Assembly: GCA_026991225.1 (NCBI GenBank)
Contig: JALXCB010000133.1
Location: 1 to 46,030 of the forward strand
Direction: 5' to 3'
Origin: Anaerolineae bacterium
GTDB lineage: Bacteria > Chloroflexota > Anaerolineae > J102
Length of the DNA stretch: 46,030 nt
The translations under genes were made by a program, and so were the position numbers. The notes beneath the pieces were generated by a model, which saw only the letters and a program-made list of their open reading frames with translations, had not been told where the DNA came from and did not search any database. Position 1 is the first letter of the stretch. The number at the start of each line of letters is the position of its first letter. Shown one piece after another: positions 21,098 through 27,577 of this stretch.

Positions 21098-23614
21098 CTA
21101 TCTGGCGATGATGTTCACCAGCCGCCCGGGCACAACGATGATTTTGCGGATGGGCTTATCCCCGATCCACTTCTGCACCCGATCATTGGCCAGGGCCAGT
21201 TTCTCCAGCTCCTCCTGGCTGGCTTCGGGGGACACGTTGATGCGGGCCCGCACTTTGCCATTGACCTGGACCGCGATCTCCACTTCCTCCTCCCTGGCCA
21301 GCTCGGGGTCGGCCTGGGGCCAGGCTTGCAGGTGGATGCTGTAGGGCTTGCCCAGCCGGGCCCACAATTCCTCGCTGATGTGGGGCATGGCCGGGGCCAT
21401 CATCAGCAACAGGGTCTCGATGGCCTCGCCCCATGCGTCCGTGCCATAAACTTCAGTCTCTTTGGCCGCGTTCAGGGTGTTCGAGAAGGCCATCAGGGCC
21501 GCGATCATCGTGTTGAATTTGAAGTTCTCGTAGTCGCTGGTGACCTTCATCAGGGTCTGGTGGGTGGCCCGGCGCAGATTGCGGATCTGCTGTTCCGAGG
21601 GGGCGCCTTCGGCCCGCTTTTTGGGTTCATCCAGCACCAGGGCCCAGACGCGATGCAGGAAGCGATGGACGCCGTCGATGGCCCGCGGGTTCCACGGCCC
21701 GCCTTCGTCCCAGGGGCCGATGAACATGAGGAAGGCGCGCACGGTGTCCGCGCCATATTTGCTCACGTAATCGTCCGGGTTGACCACGTTGCCCCGGGAT
21801 TTGGACATTTTTTCGCCGTCGGAGCCCAGGATCATGCCCTGGTTGAAGAGGCGCAGCATGGGTTCGTCGAAGTCCACCAGGCCCATGTCGCGCAGCACTT
21901 TGGTGAAGAAGCGGGTATAGAGCAGGTGCATGGTGGCGTGCTCGATGCCGCCGGTGTACTGATCCACGGGCAGCCAGTATTCGCCAACGGCTTTGTCCCA
22001 GGGGACGTCGTCTGGGCTCAGGGTTTCGCCTTCCTTCCAGTAGGGGGAGAGGTAGGCGTATTGGTACCAGGAGGAGTCCATGAAGGTGTCCATGGTGTCG
22101 GTTTCCCGGTGCGCGTCGGCGCCGCAGATGGGACACTGGACGTGCAGGAAGCCCTCGTGGTATTTCAGCGGGCTCTCGCCCGTGGGCTTGAATTCCGCGT
22201 CCTCGGGCAAGAGCACGGGCAGGTCTTCGTAGGGCACGGGCACGACGCCGCAGTTGGGGCAATGGATCATGGGGATGGGGGTGCCCCAGTAACGCTGGCG
22301 GCTGATGAGCCAGTCGCGCAGGCGGTAGTTGACCTTGCGCTCGCCCGCGGCGCGCTCTTCCAGCCACGCGGCCACTTTGTCGAAGCTTTCGGGCCAGGTC
22401 AGGCCCGTGAAGGGCCCGCTGTTGACCATGACGCTGTTTTCCTTCACCTCGAAGGCGCGTTCCATGGCCTCCGACGCTTCCTGGCTCCAGGCGCTGGCAT
22501 CGCCCGCCTCCCACACCTCTTTGGGCACGATGACGATGGGCGTGGGCAGGCCGTATTTGCGCGCGAACTCGAAGTCCCGCTGGTCATGCGCGGGCACGCC
22601 CATGATGGCGCCGGTGCCGTAGCTCATGAGCACGTATTCGGCGATGAAGATGGGCACAGGCTGGCCGTTGGCGGGGTTGATGGCGTAGGCGCCGGTGAAA
22701 ACGCCGGTCTTTTCCCCGGCCTCCTGCTGGCGGGCCAGCTCGCTCTTGTTCTTGGCCTCGGTCACATACGCCTCGACTTCCTTCCAGTAGTCGGGCGGGG
22801 TAATCTGTTCGACCAGGGGGTGTTCGGGCGCGAGGACGGCGAAGCTCATGCCGAAGATGGTGTCGGGGCGGGTGGTGAAGACGCGGAAGCTCAAATCCTC
22901 CCGTCCCTGAATCTTCATGGCGAATTCCACGCCTTCGCTGCGCCCGATCCAGTTGCGTTGCAACACCTTCACTCGCTCGGGCCAATCCAGGGTTTCCAGG
23001 CCCTCCAGCAGCTCGTCCGCGTATTTGGTGATGCGGAATTTCCACTGGGCCAGGTTTTTCATGATCACGGGCGTGCCGCAACGCTCGCATTTGCCGTCCC
23101 ACACCTGCTCCCGGGCCAGGGTCGTGTTGCAGGTGGGGCAGAATTGTACGGGCGCTTCCTCGCGATAGGCCAGGCCCATGTCATAAAATTTGAGGAAGAA
23201 CCACTGGTTCCACTGATAGTAGCCGGGCAGGCAGGTGATGGCCTCGTGCTCCCAGTCGAACATGGCGCCCATTTGCTTCAACTGCCCGCGCATCCGCTCG
23301 ATGTTGGCCATGGTCCATTTATGAGGATGGATATTATGCTTGATGGCCGCGTTCTCCGCGGGCAGGCCAAAGGCGTCAAAGCCGATGGGGAACCAGACGT
23401 TCTTGCCGTTCATGCGGGCGAAACGCGCGCCCGCGTCCGAGGGCGACATGGCGTACCAGTGGCCCGTGTGCAGGTCGCCGCTGGGATAGGGGAGCATGGT
23501 CAGGAAGTACCATTTCTCCCTGTCCGGGTCCTCGACCCGTTTGTACAGGTCGGTTTCGGCCCATTGTTGCTGCCATTTCGGTTCGATGGTTTGGGGATCG
23601 TAGCGGTCGGTCAT
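21098..23614 (-). CDS. leuS: Leucyl-tRNA synthetase
   Basis: An 838-aa class I synthetase. It charges tRNA-Leu. HIGH-type motif HTGHW sits in LPYPSGDLHTGHWYAMS (about 40-56), a zinc-finger-like CPTC...CERC is near residue 160, the CP1 editing domain is about 225-420, a second Cys pair CPNC/CPIC follows, and KMSKS occurs in EKMSKSRGN. The C-terminal anticodon-binding region is complete. It is the last gene of a long operon headed by a leucine-type T-box, which explains its regulation. The start is 6 bases after the hicA stop. Confidence 0.96.
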   Translation of the reverse strand: MTDRYDPQTIEPKWQQQWAETDLYKRVEDPDREKWYFLTMLPYPSGDLHTGHWYAMSPSDAGARFARMNGKNVWFPIGFDAFGLPAENAAIKHNIHPHKWTMANIERMRGQLKQMGAMFDWEHEAITCLPGYYQWNQWFFLKFYDMGLAYREEAPVQFCPTCNTTLAREQVWDGKCERCGTPVIMKNLAQWKFRITKYADELLEGLETLDWPERVKVLQRNWIGRSEGVEFAMKIQGREDLSFRVFTTRPDTIFGMSFAVLAPEHPLVEQITPPDYWKEVEAYVTEAKNKSELARQQEAGEKTGVFTGAYAINPANGQPVPIFIAEYVLMSYGTGAIMGVPAHDQRDFEFARKYGLPTPIVIVPKEVWEAGDASAWSQEASEAMERAFEVKENSVMVNSGPFTGLTWPESFDKVAAWLEERAAGERKVNYRLRDWLISRQRYWGTPIPMIHCPNCGVVPVPYEDLPVLLPEDAEFKPTGESPLKYHEGFLHVQCPICGADAHRETDTMDTFMDSSWYQYAYLSPYWKEGETLSPDDVPWDKAVGEYWLPVDQYTGGIEHATMHLLYTRFFTKVLRDMGLVDFDEPMLRLFNQGMILGSDGEKMSKSRGNVVNPDDYVSKYGADTVRAFLMFIGPWDEGGPWNPRAIDGVHRFLHRVWALVLDEPKKRAEGAPSEQQIRNLRRATHQTLMKVTSDYENFKFNTMIAALMAFSNTLNAAKETEVYGTDAWGEAIETLLLMMAPAMPHISEELWARLGKPYSIHLQAWPQADPELAREEEVEIAVQVNGKVRARINVSPEASQEELEKLALANDRVQKWIGDKPIRKIIVVPGRLVNIIAR

Positions 23615-23620
23615 GATTTG

Positions 23621-23851
23621 CTATTTTAGTTGTTCCATGAATTCTTCTGGGGAAACGTGGGCCTGACGGAGTATCCCACGCAATGTGCCAACGGCCAATT
23701 CACGATGCAAAGGCACTGAGCAGCCAACGGCGCCTTCTGGCGTCACCTTTTTCATCACGACATGGCTTCCACGCTGGCGGACGACGGTAAAACCCAACCG
23801 TTCCAGCGCCTTGACGGTTTCTTTACCTGAAACACGTCTCAGTTTAGGCAT
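23621..23851 (-). CDS. hicA: HicA-family mRNA interferase toxin
   Basis: A 76-aa protein with the HicA dsRBD-like pattern: LRRVSGKETVKALERLGF, then RQRGSHVVMKK, with the catalytic His in GSH. HicA cleaves mRNA and tmRNA when free of HicB. It overlaps the end of hicB by 8 bases (antitoxin first). It is read in the same direction as leuS, six bases before its start. Confidence 0.9.
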   Translation of the reverse strand: MPKLRRVSGKETVKALERLGFTVVRQRGSHVVMKKVTPEGAVGCSVPLHRELAVGTLRGILRQAHVSPEEFMEQLK

Positions 23852-24056
23852 GGACTGGCACCTGGAATGTGGTCACATAGGGCGGTTTTGTCTCAGGCAG
23901 CGGAAACTCTTCAAGATAAAGCTCGGTCGCTTCTTTGAGGTTGTCGAGTGCTTCTTCAATGGTATAGCCCTGACTGACCGTGCCTACTTCCGGACATTCC
24001 GCCACATAAATGTCGTCTTCCTTATGCACGATGGCAGTAAACGTGCGTTCTTTCAT
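23844..24056 (-). CDS. hicB: HicB-family antitoxin
   Basis: A 70-aa protein starting at 24056. It has the degenerate RNase H-like HicB fold: FTAIVHKEDDIYVAECPEVGTVSQGYTIEEALDNLKEATELYLEE. No C-terminal DNA-binding domain is present, so it is the short form that cannot obviously autoregulate. Expression probably follows the T-box operon. It is directly coupled to hicA. Confidence 0.9.
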   Translation of the reverse strand: MKERTFTAIVHKEDDIYVAECPEVGTVSQGYTIEEALDNLKEATELYLEEFPLPETKPPYVTTFQVPVHA

Positions 24057-24073
24057 ATGTAACCTCTTTTTTC

Positions 24074-24400
24074 TTACATAAATGCTTCGCGTGGAGGGCT
24101 GAAAAGCTCGAGAAGCACGGTGGGCTCCAGAAAGCGAGCTTCGTGTTCGACGCCGCCGGGGATGGCGTAGGCGTCGCCCGGGCCCGCGATCCAGGCCTCT
24201 CCGGCCACGGTGAACTGCACCCGGCCCGACTGCACGTAGCCCACCTGCTCGTGGGGGTGGCTGTGCATGGGCACGACCACGCCCGCCTCGGCGGTGAACT
24301 CGCACAGCATCATCTTTTCGCCCCAGACCAGGGTGCGGCGCACCAGGCCGGGGATCATTTCCACAGGGGAGGCGTCGTTACGAAATATCCTCGTCCGCAT
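24074..24400 (-). CDS. Cupin-domain protein
   Basis: A 108-aa single-cupin protein. The metal-binding motif 1 is [16 protein letters not shown] (about 45-60), with motif 2 [16 protein letters not shown] (about 73-88). Both His sets are present, so a metal ion is likely. The substrate is unknown; such small cupins act as isomerases, dioxygenases or sugar binders. It overlaps the end of hepT by 23 bases and lies 17 bases before hicB. Confidence 0.85.
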
Positions 24401-24746
24401 ATTCGCTCACTTCTTGCATGATGGCCTCTATCTTTGGAATGATCACGGGCAAATCGCTGGTAGCAATCGCCCAGATGATATCCAGATTGACGCCAAAATA
24501 ATGATGGATCAGCCTGTCGCGCATACGCGCCATCTCGCGCCATGGCACAGCAGGGTAGTTTTGACGTAATTCGGTCGGTAAGCCCTTGACCGCTTCGCCG
24601 ATGATTTCGAAATTGCGTACAACAGCATCCTGGGTCTTTTCATCCTCCAGGAAATCATCGTACGCCATATCGGCGACATAGCGCTCGATGCGTCGGCAGG
24701 CTTCCAGAATATCCTGCAGGAAACTGACTGAGCGGCGTTCAGACAT
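24378..24746 (-). CDS. hepT: HepT-like ribonuclease toxin (DUF86)
   Basis: A 122-aa helical HEPN protein. The R-x4-6-H-x-Y active-site motif is visible in [12 protein letters not shown] (about 84-95). HepT cuts RNA and is silenced by di- or tri-AMPylation on the Tyr of this motif by MntA. It overlaps the end of mntA by 8 bases. Confidence 0.88.
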
Positions 24747-25068
24747 CGACTAATGCTCGCGTAATGTCCTCCGCGACTTCAAGAACGCGAATGCCTTGCA
24801 AGCCCACAGGGGTCAAAATGTCAACTTTCATGCCGAGTTCCTCTTCCAAAAACTCGACAAGCTCATTGAATTCCAACCCGATGGGCCGCTCGAACTCGAC
24901 GAGCAAATCCAGATCACTGCGTTCTGATGGTCGTCCCCTGGCATAGGAACCAAAGATTGCTATACGAGAGACGCCATATTTCTCGCTCAGATAAGGACGC
25001 AATGCGTTCAATTTGCGGACAATCGACTCGGTATCTTGTTGCATCATTTCATACCAAGACTTTTTCAT
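24739..25068 (-). CDS. mntA: MntA-like antitoxin, minimal nucleotidyltransferase
   Basis: A 109-aa protein; the ATG at 25068 overlaps the HicB-like stop (ATGA). Longer in-frame starts exist but run through that gene. The nucleotidyltransferase motif [20 protein letters not shown] (GSx10DxD) is at about 40-59. In this family MntA AMPylates HepT to neutralise it. The next gene is hepT, as expected. Confidence 0.88.
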
Positions 25069-25292
25069 GTAAGCGCGGGTTCGGGCACAGCGATGTAGGT
25101 AGCTATCGAGAGATTTTTGGGCAATGTTTCGCCCGCTTCCTGCATAGCCTCCAAATGCATCTGGACGGCTTCCGCCATGTTCTGGAGCACTTCTTCGTAG
25201 GTGCTTCCAGTGGCGACGCAACCAGGAAGATCGGGGGAATAGGCGGAGTAATTTTTGTTTCCGGGTTCAATCATCACCAAGATCTGTTTCAT
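25065..25292 (-). CDS. Orphan HicB-like antitoxin
   Basis: A 75-aa protein with the HicB fold: QILVMIEPGNKNYSAYSPDLPGCVATGSTYEEVLQNMAEAVQMHLE. No hicA lies beside it. It overlaps ilvE (ATGA, 25289-25292) at its start and mntA at its end. It may be a solo antitoxin left after toxin loss, or may serve the HicA 1.2 kb downstream. It lacks a DNA-binding tail. Confidence 0.85.
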   Translation of the reverse strand: MKQILVMIEPGNKNYSAYSPDLPGCVATGSTYEEVLQNMAEAVQMHLEAMQEAGETLPKNLSIATYIAVPEPALT

Positions 25293-26221
25293 TCCTGTTC
25301 ATAGACGTAATCCAGCCAGCCGTGCTCGTCGGGATAGCGGCCCGCGGTGATGTCGAAGAAGCGCTGCTGGATGGCCTTGGTGATGGGGCCGCGGGAGCCC
25401 GAGCCCACAGGAATGCGATCCACCGAGCGGATGGGCGTGACCTCGGCTGCGGTGCCGGTGAAGAAGAGTTCATCGGCCAGGTAGAGCATTTCGCGGGTGA
25501 TGAGCGTCTCGTGCACTTCATAGCCCAGATCGCGGGCGATGGTCATGACCGCATCGCGAGTGATGCCGCCCAGGATGTCGGCGTAAAGGGGCGGCGTGTA
25601 GAGGACGCCATCTTTGACCATGAACAGATTCTCGCCCGAGCCCTCGGCCACATAGCCGTGGATATCCAGGCTGATGGCTTCGTCATAACCAAGATCATGG
25701 GCTTCCATGGCGATAAACTGGCTGTTCACATACTGACCGCCGATCTTGCCCAGCGGCGCGCCCACGCCCGAGGGCGTGCGTCGCCAGGAGCTGACGGCCA
25801 CATCGACGCCCTGGTTGATGGCCTCCTCGCCCAGGTATGCGCCCCAGGGCACAGTGCCGATGATGACTTCGATGGGGCATTTGCGGCCATCGACGCCCAA
25901 GGTCTCATAACCGCGGTAAATCAGGGGGCGAATGTAACAGGATTCCAGCTTGTTGGCCCGGATGGCGGCCTTGCTGGCTTCGATGAGCTCATCCGCCGTG
26001 TAGGGCACGGGCGTCAGCCGCATGATCTTGGCCGAATCCATCAATCGACGGAAATGCTCGTGGCTGCGGAAGATGGCCGGGCCTTTGGGGGTGCTATATG
26101 CGCGAATGCCTTCGAAAACGCTGCTTCCATAATGAAGCGCATGCGCGAAAACATGAACTTTGGCCTGATCCCAGGAGATCAGCTCGCCGTTCATCCACAT
26201 CCATTCAGCTCGCATTGCCAT
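25289..26221 (-). CDS. ilvE: Branched-chain amino acid aminotransferase
   Basis: A 310-aa class IV PLP enzyme; ATG at 26221 with GAGGTG upstream (the alternative at 26215 differs by two residues). Features: FEGIRAYSTPKGPAIFR, the PLP lysine in the GKIGGQYVNSQF region (about 160-171), EAISLDIHGYVAEGSGENLFMV, and GTAAEVTPIRSVD. It makes or breaks leucine, isoleucine and valine with 2-oxoglutarate/glutamate. It is the first gene of the T-box-controlled operon, a fit with leucine sensing. Confidence 0.95.
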   Translation of the reverse strand: MAMRAEWMWMNGELISWDQAKVHVFAHALHYGSSVFEGIRAYSTPKGPAIFRSHEHFRRLMDSAKIMRLTPVPYTADELIEASKAAIRANKLESCYIRPLIYRGYETLGVDGRKCPIEVIIGTVPWGAYLGEEAINQGVDVAVSSWRRTPSGVGAPLGKIGGQYVNSQFIAMEAHDLGYDEAISLDIHGYVAEGSGENLFMVKDGVLYTPPLYADILGGITRDAVMTIARDLGYEVHETLITREMLYLADELFFTGTAAEVTPIRSVDRIPVGSGSRGPITKAIQQRFFDITAGRYPDEHGWLDYVYEQE

Positions 26222-26317
26222 GATAATCACCTCATTGTGATAGGAAAATAGGAGAAATCGATCGTTCAGGCGACATTGCCTTGCTTTTATATCATACACC
26301 AAAATGGATGATTATTC

Positions 26318-26473
26318 GTAACTATACACGTACCCTCTCATAGCAAGGCAAAAAACCACGAAGGACACGAAGGACACTAAGGCACAAAGGGAAAAATAAA
26401 AAATTTTCTTCGTGTCTTTGTGACTTTGTGCCTTTGTGGTAAAAACGTCTTGCAGAAGGAGCTGTATAGTTAC
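26318..26473 (-). mobile_element. Family A element between the T-box and ilvE
   Basis: 156 bp. The ends are GTAACTATACACGTA and CTGTATAGTTAC. Perfect 8-bp direct repeats GATTATTC lie at 26310-26317 and 26474-26481. The body is a CACGAAG-type hairpin. It lies in the untranslated leader between the T-box terminator and the ilvE start, so its hairpin is transcribed when the T-box is open. Confidence 0.88.
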
Positions 26474-26530
26474 GATTATTCACAGTTTGCACGCAAGCGT
26501 CAGCCTTGAACGGTGGGATGATGCCCATCC

Positions 26531-26570
26531 AAAAAGAAAAATCCCCTCGTCCTGCAGGGACGAAGGGATT
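26531..26570 (-). terminator. T-box terminator hairpin
   Basis: On the minus strand AATCCCTTCGTCC pairs with GGACGAGGGGATT (13 bp), followed by a T-rich tract. Its 5' arm overlaps the region that pairs in the antiterminator, directly after the T-box sequence. Confidence 0.9.
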
Positions 26571-26631
26571 CCGCGGTGCCACCCTGATTGCCAGAACAGG
26601 AGGCCGGTCATCATCGGATAACCGGCCTCGG

Positions 26632-26707
26632 TGGTGGAGCTGGGGGGACTCGAACCCCCGACCCCCACAATGCCATTGTGGTGCTCTCCCAGCTGAGCTA
26701 CAGCCCC
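26632..26707 (-). tRNA. tRNA-Ala (anticodon GGC), CCA encoded
   Basis: A 73-nt cloverleaf plus encoded CCA. The acceptor stem GGGGCTG/CAGCTCC includes the G3:U70 pair that marks alanine tRNAs. Anticodon stem CCACA/TGTGG with loop ATGGCAT gives GGC; T-arm GGGGG TTCGAGT CCCCC. It lies between stem III and the antiterminator of the T-box. Confidence 0.97.
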
Positions 26708-26931
26708 AGGTCTGTTCTGACCTCTCTATCGCGATAACGGGCGAACCCGTCGTCGACTAGGCCCCAACGGCTTTCGCCGACGCTGCTCCCAGGCGAGTTC
26801 AGTCTCACGCGGGCCCGACGCCGCAACGCCTGGCTTTCACTCTCCCAGGCTCGCTTTCGGGCTGACCTACTACTCCTGTTCGCTGCATGTCTATATCAGG
26901 TTGGAAGGAGCGCTTCCGGGCGGCTGGGGCA

Positions 26932-27024: not shown

Positions 27025-27053
27025 AGTTTAGGAGAAGCGGCGGATTTTGTCAA
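27025..27053 (-). promoter_or_regulatory. Strong sigma-70 promoter for tRNA-Ala / T-box / ilvE-leuS
   Basis: On the minus strand: TTGACA (27053-27048), 17-base spacer, TAAACT (27030-27025). The tRNA starts 18 bases downstream of the -10 box. The family A composite at 27059 inserted right against the -35 box; the target duplication kept the box intact. Confidence 0.85.
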
Positions 27054-27058
27054 GTTTT

Positions 27059-27577
27059 GTAACTACTAAACTAAACGCATTTTGAAATCAGGTGTTTTCG
27101 GCCTCGGCCACCCGGAGCTGAAGCTCCGGGCTACGAAACGACGCCGGGTGAACCCGACTTCCTACGGCGCGCGACCTGCACCGTAGCCCCATTCATGGGG
27201 CGTCGTTTTTAGCCCGCAGGTTCACCTGCGGGCGGCAGCGCGGCCAGAGAATCGCCTTTCATGGATGATCCAATGCACACCAAAAGCCTTGGTTTCAATT
27301 TGCTTTCAGTTTACTAACGTAGCAAGGTCGAAAACCACGAAGACACGACGACACGAAGGCACGAAGGGGAAAAGTGGCAGGTGGCAGGTGGCAGGTGGCA
27401 AGTAGCAGGTGAAAAACCTCGCAGCCAGAAGGACTTGCCACTTGTGACCTGCAAACCTGCAAACCTTGTATTGTCTTCGTCCCCTCCCCCTGAGCGTAGC
27501 TCGGGGGAGCCGGAGGGGGGCCGAGCCTTCGTGGCAAGGCATTTTCGATGCCGAACCAGGCTACCTTCAGCAGTTAC
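27059..27577 (-). mobile_element. Composite: family A element carrying a nested family D element
   Basis: 519 bp. The outer ends GTAACTACTA and CAGTTAC are flanked by perfect 8-bp direct repeats CAAGTTTT at 27051-27058 and 27578-27585. Inside, close to the left end, sits a 243-bp family D element; without it the outer element is about 275 bp. The outer body holds a CACGAAG hairpin plus short repeats GTGGCAGGTGGCAGG and a CGGGGGAGCCGGAGGGGG word. The right end supplies the stop codon of the 27574-27807 gene. Confidence 0.82.
27069..27311 (+). mobile_element. Family D element, nested copy
   Basis: 243 bp, ends AACTAAACGC and GCTTTCAGTT (inverted), TA on both sides. Nearly identical to 40066-40310. 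The interior has small hairpins: GGAGCTGAAGCTCC, CCCATTCATGGGG and GCCCGCAGGTTCACCTGCGG. TA flanks are a feature of IS630/Tc1-like targets, an inference here; a 4-bp ACTA duplication is an alternative reading of this copy. Confidence 0.75.

Follow-up and report, generated by a model that had tools for sequence, protein, structure and literature searches.

Transcription units in which tRNAs and a translation gene share a transcript and are separated by processing are exemplified by thrU-tufB of Escherichia coli. In that unit, the tRNA is located outside any riboswitch and no aminoacylation sensor intervenes, whereas the unit from Chloroflexota described here has both a tRNA within a riboswitch and such a sensor. 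As for the two-codon T-box of Clostridium acetobutylicum, its biology also involves two amino acids, but its two tRNAs bind in trans, while the Chloroflexota switch encodes a second tRNA within itself. The nearest precedent that we found for tRNAs within a larger structured RNA is GOLLD, which carries them in a linker; however, it is a phage RNA of unknown function that contains a tRNA only sometimes and has no gene-control platform (PMC12286853). Endonucleolytic cutting of a T-box leader has been described for thrS of Bacillus subtilis (PMC11313650, PMC4419217). That leader is cut by a general mRNA endonuclease (RNase Y/J1), whereas tRNA enzymes are expected to act at both ends of the tRNA in the Chloroflexota leader.

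The aminoacylation-sensing domain of T-boxes has been defined by the motif 5'-RRRxG-stem III-AA-3', in which stem III varies in both its stem and its loop (PMC7583486). The locus analysed here has in common with leuS/ilv-type T-boxes with a CUC specifier (RF00230) stem I, the specifier, the RRRxG-stem III-AA motif, the UGGN antiterminator, the terminator and a leuS or ilvE target. Two features set it apart from them: stem III surrounds a complete tRNA gene for a different amino acid, functional in appearance (approximately 76 nt), together with an extra hairpin, and another tRNA is located 5' of the leader in the same unit. The literature that we found covers T-boxes, stem III and T-box databases; no earlier description of a tRNA gene within a T-box came up in the open-access literature searched, an earlier mention being possible.

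A single T-box with a whole tRNA gene inside

The window, i.e. the whole stretch of 46,030 nucleotides that was analysed (contig JALXCB010000133.1 of an Anaerolineae bacterium), carries on its minus strand, in this order, a promoter, tRNA-Ala(CGC), a T-box leader with tRNA-Ala(GGC), an antiterminator/terminator, ilvE, small genes and leuS. The features are as follows, in window coordinates.

27025..27053, minus strand: promoter TTGACA-17-TAAACT (10/12 matches), the sole good one in the unit
27006-26932, minus strand: tRNA-Ala(CGC), first product of the unit (tRNA gene searches)
26733..26892, minus strand: T-box stem I, stem II and stem IIA/B region (RF00230 alignment)
26795..26797, minus strand: specifier CUC (Leu) in GAA-CUC-GCCUGG-GAGC (register calibration)
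26722..26726, minus strand: RRRxG motif GAGAG, 5' flank of stem III (sequence)
26712..26721, minus strand: stem III 5' arm GUCAGAACAG (fold and covariation)
26707-26632, minus strand: tRNA-Ala(GGC) with encoded CCA, in the stem III loop (tRNA gene searches, ARAGORN)
26600..26629, minus strand: extra hairpin 3' of the tRNA, within stem III (fold, alignments)
26590..26599, minus strand: stem III 3' arm CUGUUCUGGC (fold and covariation)
26588..26589, minus strand: AA, 3' flank of stem III (invariant in alignment A1)
26571..26585, minus strand: T-box sequence AGGGUGGCACCGCGG with UGGC bulge, 5' side of the antiterminator (RF00230 match)
26531..26572, minus strand: intrinsic terminator (hairpin 26572-26538, 15 pairs) with T-run, alternative to the antiterminator (fold)
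25289..26221, minus strand: ilvE, branched-chain amino acid aminotransferase, first gene after the T-box (TIGR01122, 423.6 bits)
21098..23614, minus strand: leuS, leucyl-tRNA synthetase, further downstream (TIGR00396, 1003.7 bits)

The RF00230 model covers positions 26892-26553 of the minus strand over its full length (model positions 1-219; 71.3 bits, below the Rfam gathering cut-off of 93; E 2.6e-15). The tRNA falls in an insertion of 118 nt relative to the model, located in stem III. Six relatives with the same layout score above the cut-off (108.9, 104.9, 103.2, 101.4, 94.5 and 93.7 bits). The original prediction had treated the sequences on both sides of the tRNA as parts of a single T-box. 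Scored alone, the part 5' of the tRNA reaches 43.0 bits (model positions 1-182) and the 3' part 26.3 bits (positions 146-219). The two halves thus complement each other on the model, which indicates that both belong to a single T-box with an intact tRNA gene in its midst. The end-to-end match, the tRNA gene searches and the conservation of the layout bear out the predicted tRNA-Ala(GGC) with encoded CCA at this place. Both an antiterminator with a UGGN bulge and the competing 15-pair terminator with its T-run are present in the window leader, and so is the sensing-domain motif, with GAGAG and AA flanking stem III. This RRRxG...AA motif was found in nearly all of 54 leaders of the class, and it gives invariant columns in alignment A1.

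The embedded tRNA-Ala(GGC) scores 63.7 bits, and ARAGORN agrees on an intact cloverleaf with a GGC anticodon. By inspection, its acceptor stem is GGGGCUG/CAGCUCC with a G3-U70 pair. It is the sole GGC gene found among the 45 tRNAs of the assembly, which suggests that it is used in translation. The second tRNA of the unit, tRNA-Ala(CGC) (27006-26932), located 5' of the leader, was not mentioned in the original prediction; with few exceptions, the other embedded leaders of the class have it in the same position. The two alanine tRNAs of the window are 88% identical, which would fit an old tandem pair. As for the encoded CCA, it is present in the embedded tRNAs of just 16 of 54 leaders.

To read the specifier, we calibrated its register on Trp, Thr and Ile T-boxes of the same genome and of relatives, in each of which the specifier is located 6 nt before GAGC. 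This register designates CUC (Leu) in the window. CUC is kept in the leaders that were read, including those found without CUC in the query, and it fits the downstream genes, leuS or ilvE; it is also the commonest leucine specifier in TBDB, with a share of 0.77 (PMC7778990). The triplet that follows varies, being GCC in the window and ACC, GUC, AUC or other triplets elsewhere. An alanine-specific T-box with GCC as the specifier is ruled out by the register calibration and by this variation. LeuS is the usual first gene behind the leucine T-box in other genomes, directly adjoining it in most other families, and it could be read on the DNA of 37 of the 39 embedded loci from the phylum search. 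We found no tRNA-Leu(GAG) among the 45 tRNAs of the assembly, and since tRNA-Asp is missing from it too, an assembly gap is likely. Among relatives of the class, tRNA-Leu(GAG) was seen in only two, with a search pattern that is incomplete. The antiterminator bulge is UGGU in most relatives, which fits A73 of tRNA-Leu, and UGGC in the genus of the window and in several other leaders (L009, L041-L047), which makes a mismatch to A73.

Promoter-like sites are present at most 120 nt 5' of tRNA-Ala(CGC) in 50/50 leaders of relatives, against 3 in shuffled sequences, and between tRNA-Ala(CGC) and the specifier in a single one of 51 leaders. This distribution suggests that both tRNAs and the T-box probably form one transcript in most lineages. 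A separate promoter with its own stem I between the tRNA and the antiterminator, the arrangement named in the original prediction as speaking against a single T-box, was found neither in the window nor in the leaders of relatives. In one derived family, f35, eight leaders (L257, L259-L263, L267 and L268) have a promoter-like site within the loop of stem III; in most of them it is 13-19 nt 5' of tRNA-Ala(GGC). Such sites are confined to this family and are not present in the sister leaders L264-L266. Given its promoter-like site, tRNA-Ala(GGC) may have acquired its own promoter inside the riboswitch in f35 and be made separately there.

Two further observations concern the surroundings of the leader. 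Between ilvE and leuS (23621-25292, minus strand), the window contains small genes of toxin-antitoxin-like type, namely a HicB-like gene, a nucleotidyltransferase and a HepT-like gene, a cupin gene, a weakly HicB-like gene and HicA. Repeats of the CACAAAG/CTTCGTG type are located around the stretch from the terminator to ilvE (26308-26482) and again upstream of the unit (27320-27400), and a 20-nt inverted pair (26309-26328 with 26463-26482) brackets the former stretch; these repeats and the inverted pair resemble a small element of mobile or REP-like type.

Pairing of stem III across the tRNA

Folding of positions 26725-26556 yields a stem III of 10 bp with one G-U pair, in which 26721-26712 (GUCAGAACAG) pairs with 26599-26590 (CUGUUCUGGC). 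In the minimum-energy fold, this stem closes a three-way junction made up with the full cloverleaf and the hairpin at 26629-26600, at a free energy of -80 kcal/mol compared with -68.8 kcal/mol in shuffles. The whole leader folds with the same three-way element and the terminator (z -3.95). The extra hairpin is variable or missing in the alignments of relatives.

The pairing was examined across relatives in a MAFFT alignment of 40 leaders of the class, built without structure, in which six stem III pairs could be followed across the tRNA. The pairs are formed in 98.3% of the cells, against 74.3% in shuffles, and when the partner is slid along the alignment, pairing falls to 21-49% (at most 48.7%). 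Changes on both sides occurred at five of the six pairs and the covariation score is 0.692, compared with 0.244 in shuffles. When the anchors were set blind to the helix, all six positions matched in 25 of the 50 distinct combinations of arms, where shuffled arms give a mean of 2.3 and a maximum of 8; the mismatches mostly resemble register errors of the crude anchor. Counts of both kinds are inflated by kinship among the sequences. The 5' arms include GUCAGAACAG, GGCCAGG, GAUAGAU, GUCGGC and GAUGGACAG, each with a matching partner, and such a variety would be hard to explain otherwise than by selection on pairing. The helix around the tRNA that had been predicted from complementary words therefore stands, by fold and by strong covariation, with the correction that it comprises 10 bp including one G-U rather than 8.

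The distance between stem III and the tRNA is not uniform. The spacers range from 0 to more than 100 nt, and the helix comes within 0-7 nt of the tRNA in some leaders (L265, L266, L278, L280 and L281). In the family f76, from outside the class, the stem III arms were not resolved by a simple search. In another leader (L056), a tandem repeat of approximately 21 nt, of the GCGTGGTCTCCACGCCCTGGT type, has expanded within the T-box, between the specifier and tRNA-Ala(GGC).

Occurrence of the nested layout in Chloroflexota

The 400-bp element is present at 75-90% identity, with both tRNAs, in 17 of the 20 genomes of the family. In the other three (G005, G010 and G013), neither the leader nor tRNA-Ala(GGC) was found, and as the tRNA is missing along with the leader, these absences are likely to be assembly gaps. 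The genome of Anaerolineae bacterium S145_12 (L069) has the element at 86% identity, on a contig other than that of its ilvE locus, and the ilvE loci of the named genomes L069-L073 have no T-box. The search of viral contigs yielded no match.

To explore the class, we used a pattern made of any tRNA T-arm followed by a T-box on 396 genomes, with the reversed pattern as a control. It matched 27 of these genomes, the control gave 0 matches, and all matches examined were tRNA-Ala(GGC). Adding a search for the leucine specifier region brought the collection to 71 distinct leucine T-boxes, of which 55 embed tRNA-Ala(GGC), 9 have tRNA-Ala upstream only and 7 have none nearby, these counts coming from pattern searches and thus from a non-random sample. 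The embedded leaders of the class belong to 16 families (f1, f2, f5, f6, f8, f13, f17, f22, f23, f24, f26, f35, f40, f42, f44 and f49). A similar tRNA-T-box pattern that made no use of the specifier matched 45 of 400 genomes of the phylum, and tRNA-Ala(GGC) was located between stem I and the T-box sequence in 39 of the 40 loci read. These add ten families outside the class (f62, f63, f67, f68, f70, f73, f76, f89, f101 and f102). The embedded layout is thus found in at least 26 families of Chloroflexota, mostly before leuS, and neither the isoacceptor nor the T-box type varies among them. A chance juxtaposition is excluded by this spread, which covers 17 of the family's 20 genomes and no fewer than 26 families in the phylum.

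In a LeuS tree of 74 loci, the embedded state appears on every deep branch sampled and the eight exceptions fall within one subclade, the loci from outside the class having been picked by the embedded pattern, so that other states may occur there. This distribution makes the embedded state look ancestral and the upstream state derived; the architecture appears to be ancient and vertically kept. The related genomes, to which the original prediction had looked for leaders with or without the tRNA, show a widespread embedded layout and, in one subclade, leaders with the tRNA outside. In six leaders (L226, L237, L251-L253 and L284), tRNA-Ala(CGC) and tRNA-Ala(GGC) are in tandem 5' of the leucine T-box and not inside it. 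An ancient layout, vertically kept, does not support the partial duplication upon insertion that had been proposed from the GTTATC-CGAT words on both sides of the tRNA. As a duplication footprint these words were rejected, since the upstream CGTTA is part of the T-box and widely conserved. Its downstream counterpart is found in the loop of a hairpin, differs among members of the family, and is lacking from many relatives.

Working model and alternatives

We consider it likely that a tRNA-Ala transcription unit has been fused with a leucine T-box, whose terminator would control read-through into leuS/ilvE. The sequences themselves show the order of the parts, the match to a single T-box, the specifier, the covarying helix of stem III, the promoter kept in relatives and the spread of the layout; how the T-box would act in these cells, when it would be read and how its RNA would be processed can be proposed on this basis. 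RNA polymerase would start at one promoter and transcribe in turn tRNA-Ala(CGC), stems I and II, tRNA-Ala(GGC) and the antiterminator/terminator. The tRNA-Ala(GGC) would fill the stem III loop, with its cloverleaf projecting from the far end of the stem, and as stem III closes around the tRNA, the sensing domain should still form. Uncharged tRNA-Leu(GAG) would pair with the CUC specifier and with the UGGN bulge and stabilise the antiterminator, allowing read-through to ilvE/leuS; with charged tRNA-Leu, the polymerase would stop at the terminator. As both alanine tRNAs are located 5' of the terminator, they would be made in either state of the switch, and the T-box terminator would also end the tRNA operon.

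The switch decision would be taken during transcription, before excision of the tRNA. Indeed, the terminator is complete approximately 100 nt after the tRNA, so that readout probably precedes processing. RNase P and RNase Z would later release tRNA-Ala(GGC), consuming the leader, and any mRNA arising from read-through would then begin anew at the antiterminator. Since no other GGC gene was found, general tRNA biology suggests that this tRNA must be cut out, which would destroy the leader. A competition between tRNA processing and riboswitch readout, as the original prediction envisaged, is plausible.

It is tempting to speculate that stem III also serves as the leader-trailer helix of pre-tRNA-Ala(GGC), in an ancient composite RNA in which sensing and maturation control each other. 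The folding state of the T-box would then set the speed of RNase P and RNase Z on the precursor, cutting would disarm the switch, and tRNA-Ala supply and LeuRS/IlvE expression would affect each other. Leader pairing near the cleavage site is known to slow RNase P, and pairing of the leader with the 3' end of the precursor acts as a brake (PMC9433436); the helix around the pre-tRNA appears to be under selection, it comes within 0-7 nt of the tRNA in some leaders, and the layout is kept throughout the phylum. However, T-box sensing already needs stem III, whose conservation therefore requires no role in processing, the broad range of spacers argues against a fixed geometry, and stem III is expected in either state of the switch. 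We regard such coupled control as rather unlikely. A more probable alternative, which we hold to be a serious possibility while leaning slightly away from it, is that tRNA-Ala landed in the T-box of an ancestral leuS, within a loop that tolerated it, where nesting was neutral for regulation, and could not leave that loop because it was the sole GGC gene. The variability of stem and loop in T-box stem III (PMC7583486) and the single copy of tRNA-Ala(GGC) in the assembly are in line with this scenario. The subclade in which the GGC gene is found upstream beside tRNA-Ala(CGC), with the T-box retained, has been put in its favour; it also indicates that escape is possible, and yet at least 26 families have kept the nesting, without any change of isoacceptor or T-box type.

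An action of the embedded tRNA on its own T-box, either through pairing of its acceptor end with the UGGN bulge or through pairing of its GGC anticodon with the GCC that directly follows CUC, might be envisaged for the window, where the tRNA encodes CCA. Nevertheless, the triplet after CUC varies among leaders, the 6-nt calibration yields CUC itself, and most of the embedded tRNAs have no encoded CCA (16/54 do), which makes such a decoy very improbable. Finally, most of the genomes are draft metagenome assemblies, in which unrelated elements might have been placed side by side by assembly or annotation. The same order is nevertheless found in dozens of independent genomes, including on single large contigs of near-complete genomes, and compensatory changes occur across the tRNA, so that an artefact is hardly conceivable. 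We favour the fusion of a tRNA-Ala unit with a leucine T-box that would regulate the downstream genes.

Few RNA switches have been studied as well as T-boxes, and here the sole tRNA-Ala(GGC) gene found is housed in a loop of the sensing domain. This shows that a folded tRNA is tolerated, or used, at the far end of stem III. As the tRNA sits inside a leucine-sensing RNA, its excision should break the switch, and the locus makes it possible to test how an RNA that is cut to yield a tRNA works nonetheless as a switch. Collections of T-boxes and annotations of genomes may contain other composite leaders, which score below the Rfam cut-off or have been entered as two features. If stem III proved to join sensing and maturation in one composite RNA, the supply of an alanine tRNA would be linked to the level of leucyl-tRNA synthetase across Chloroflexota.
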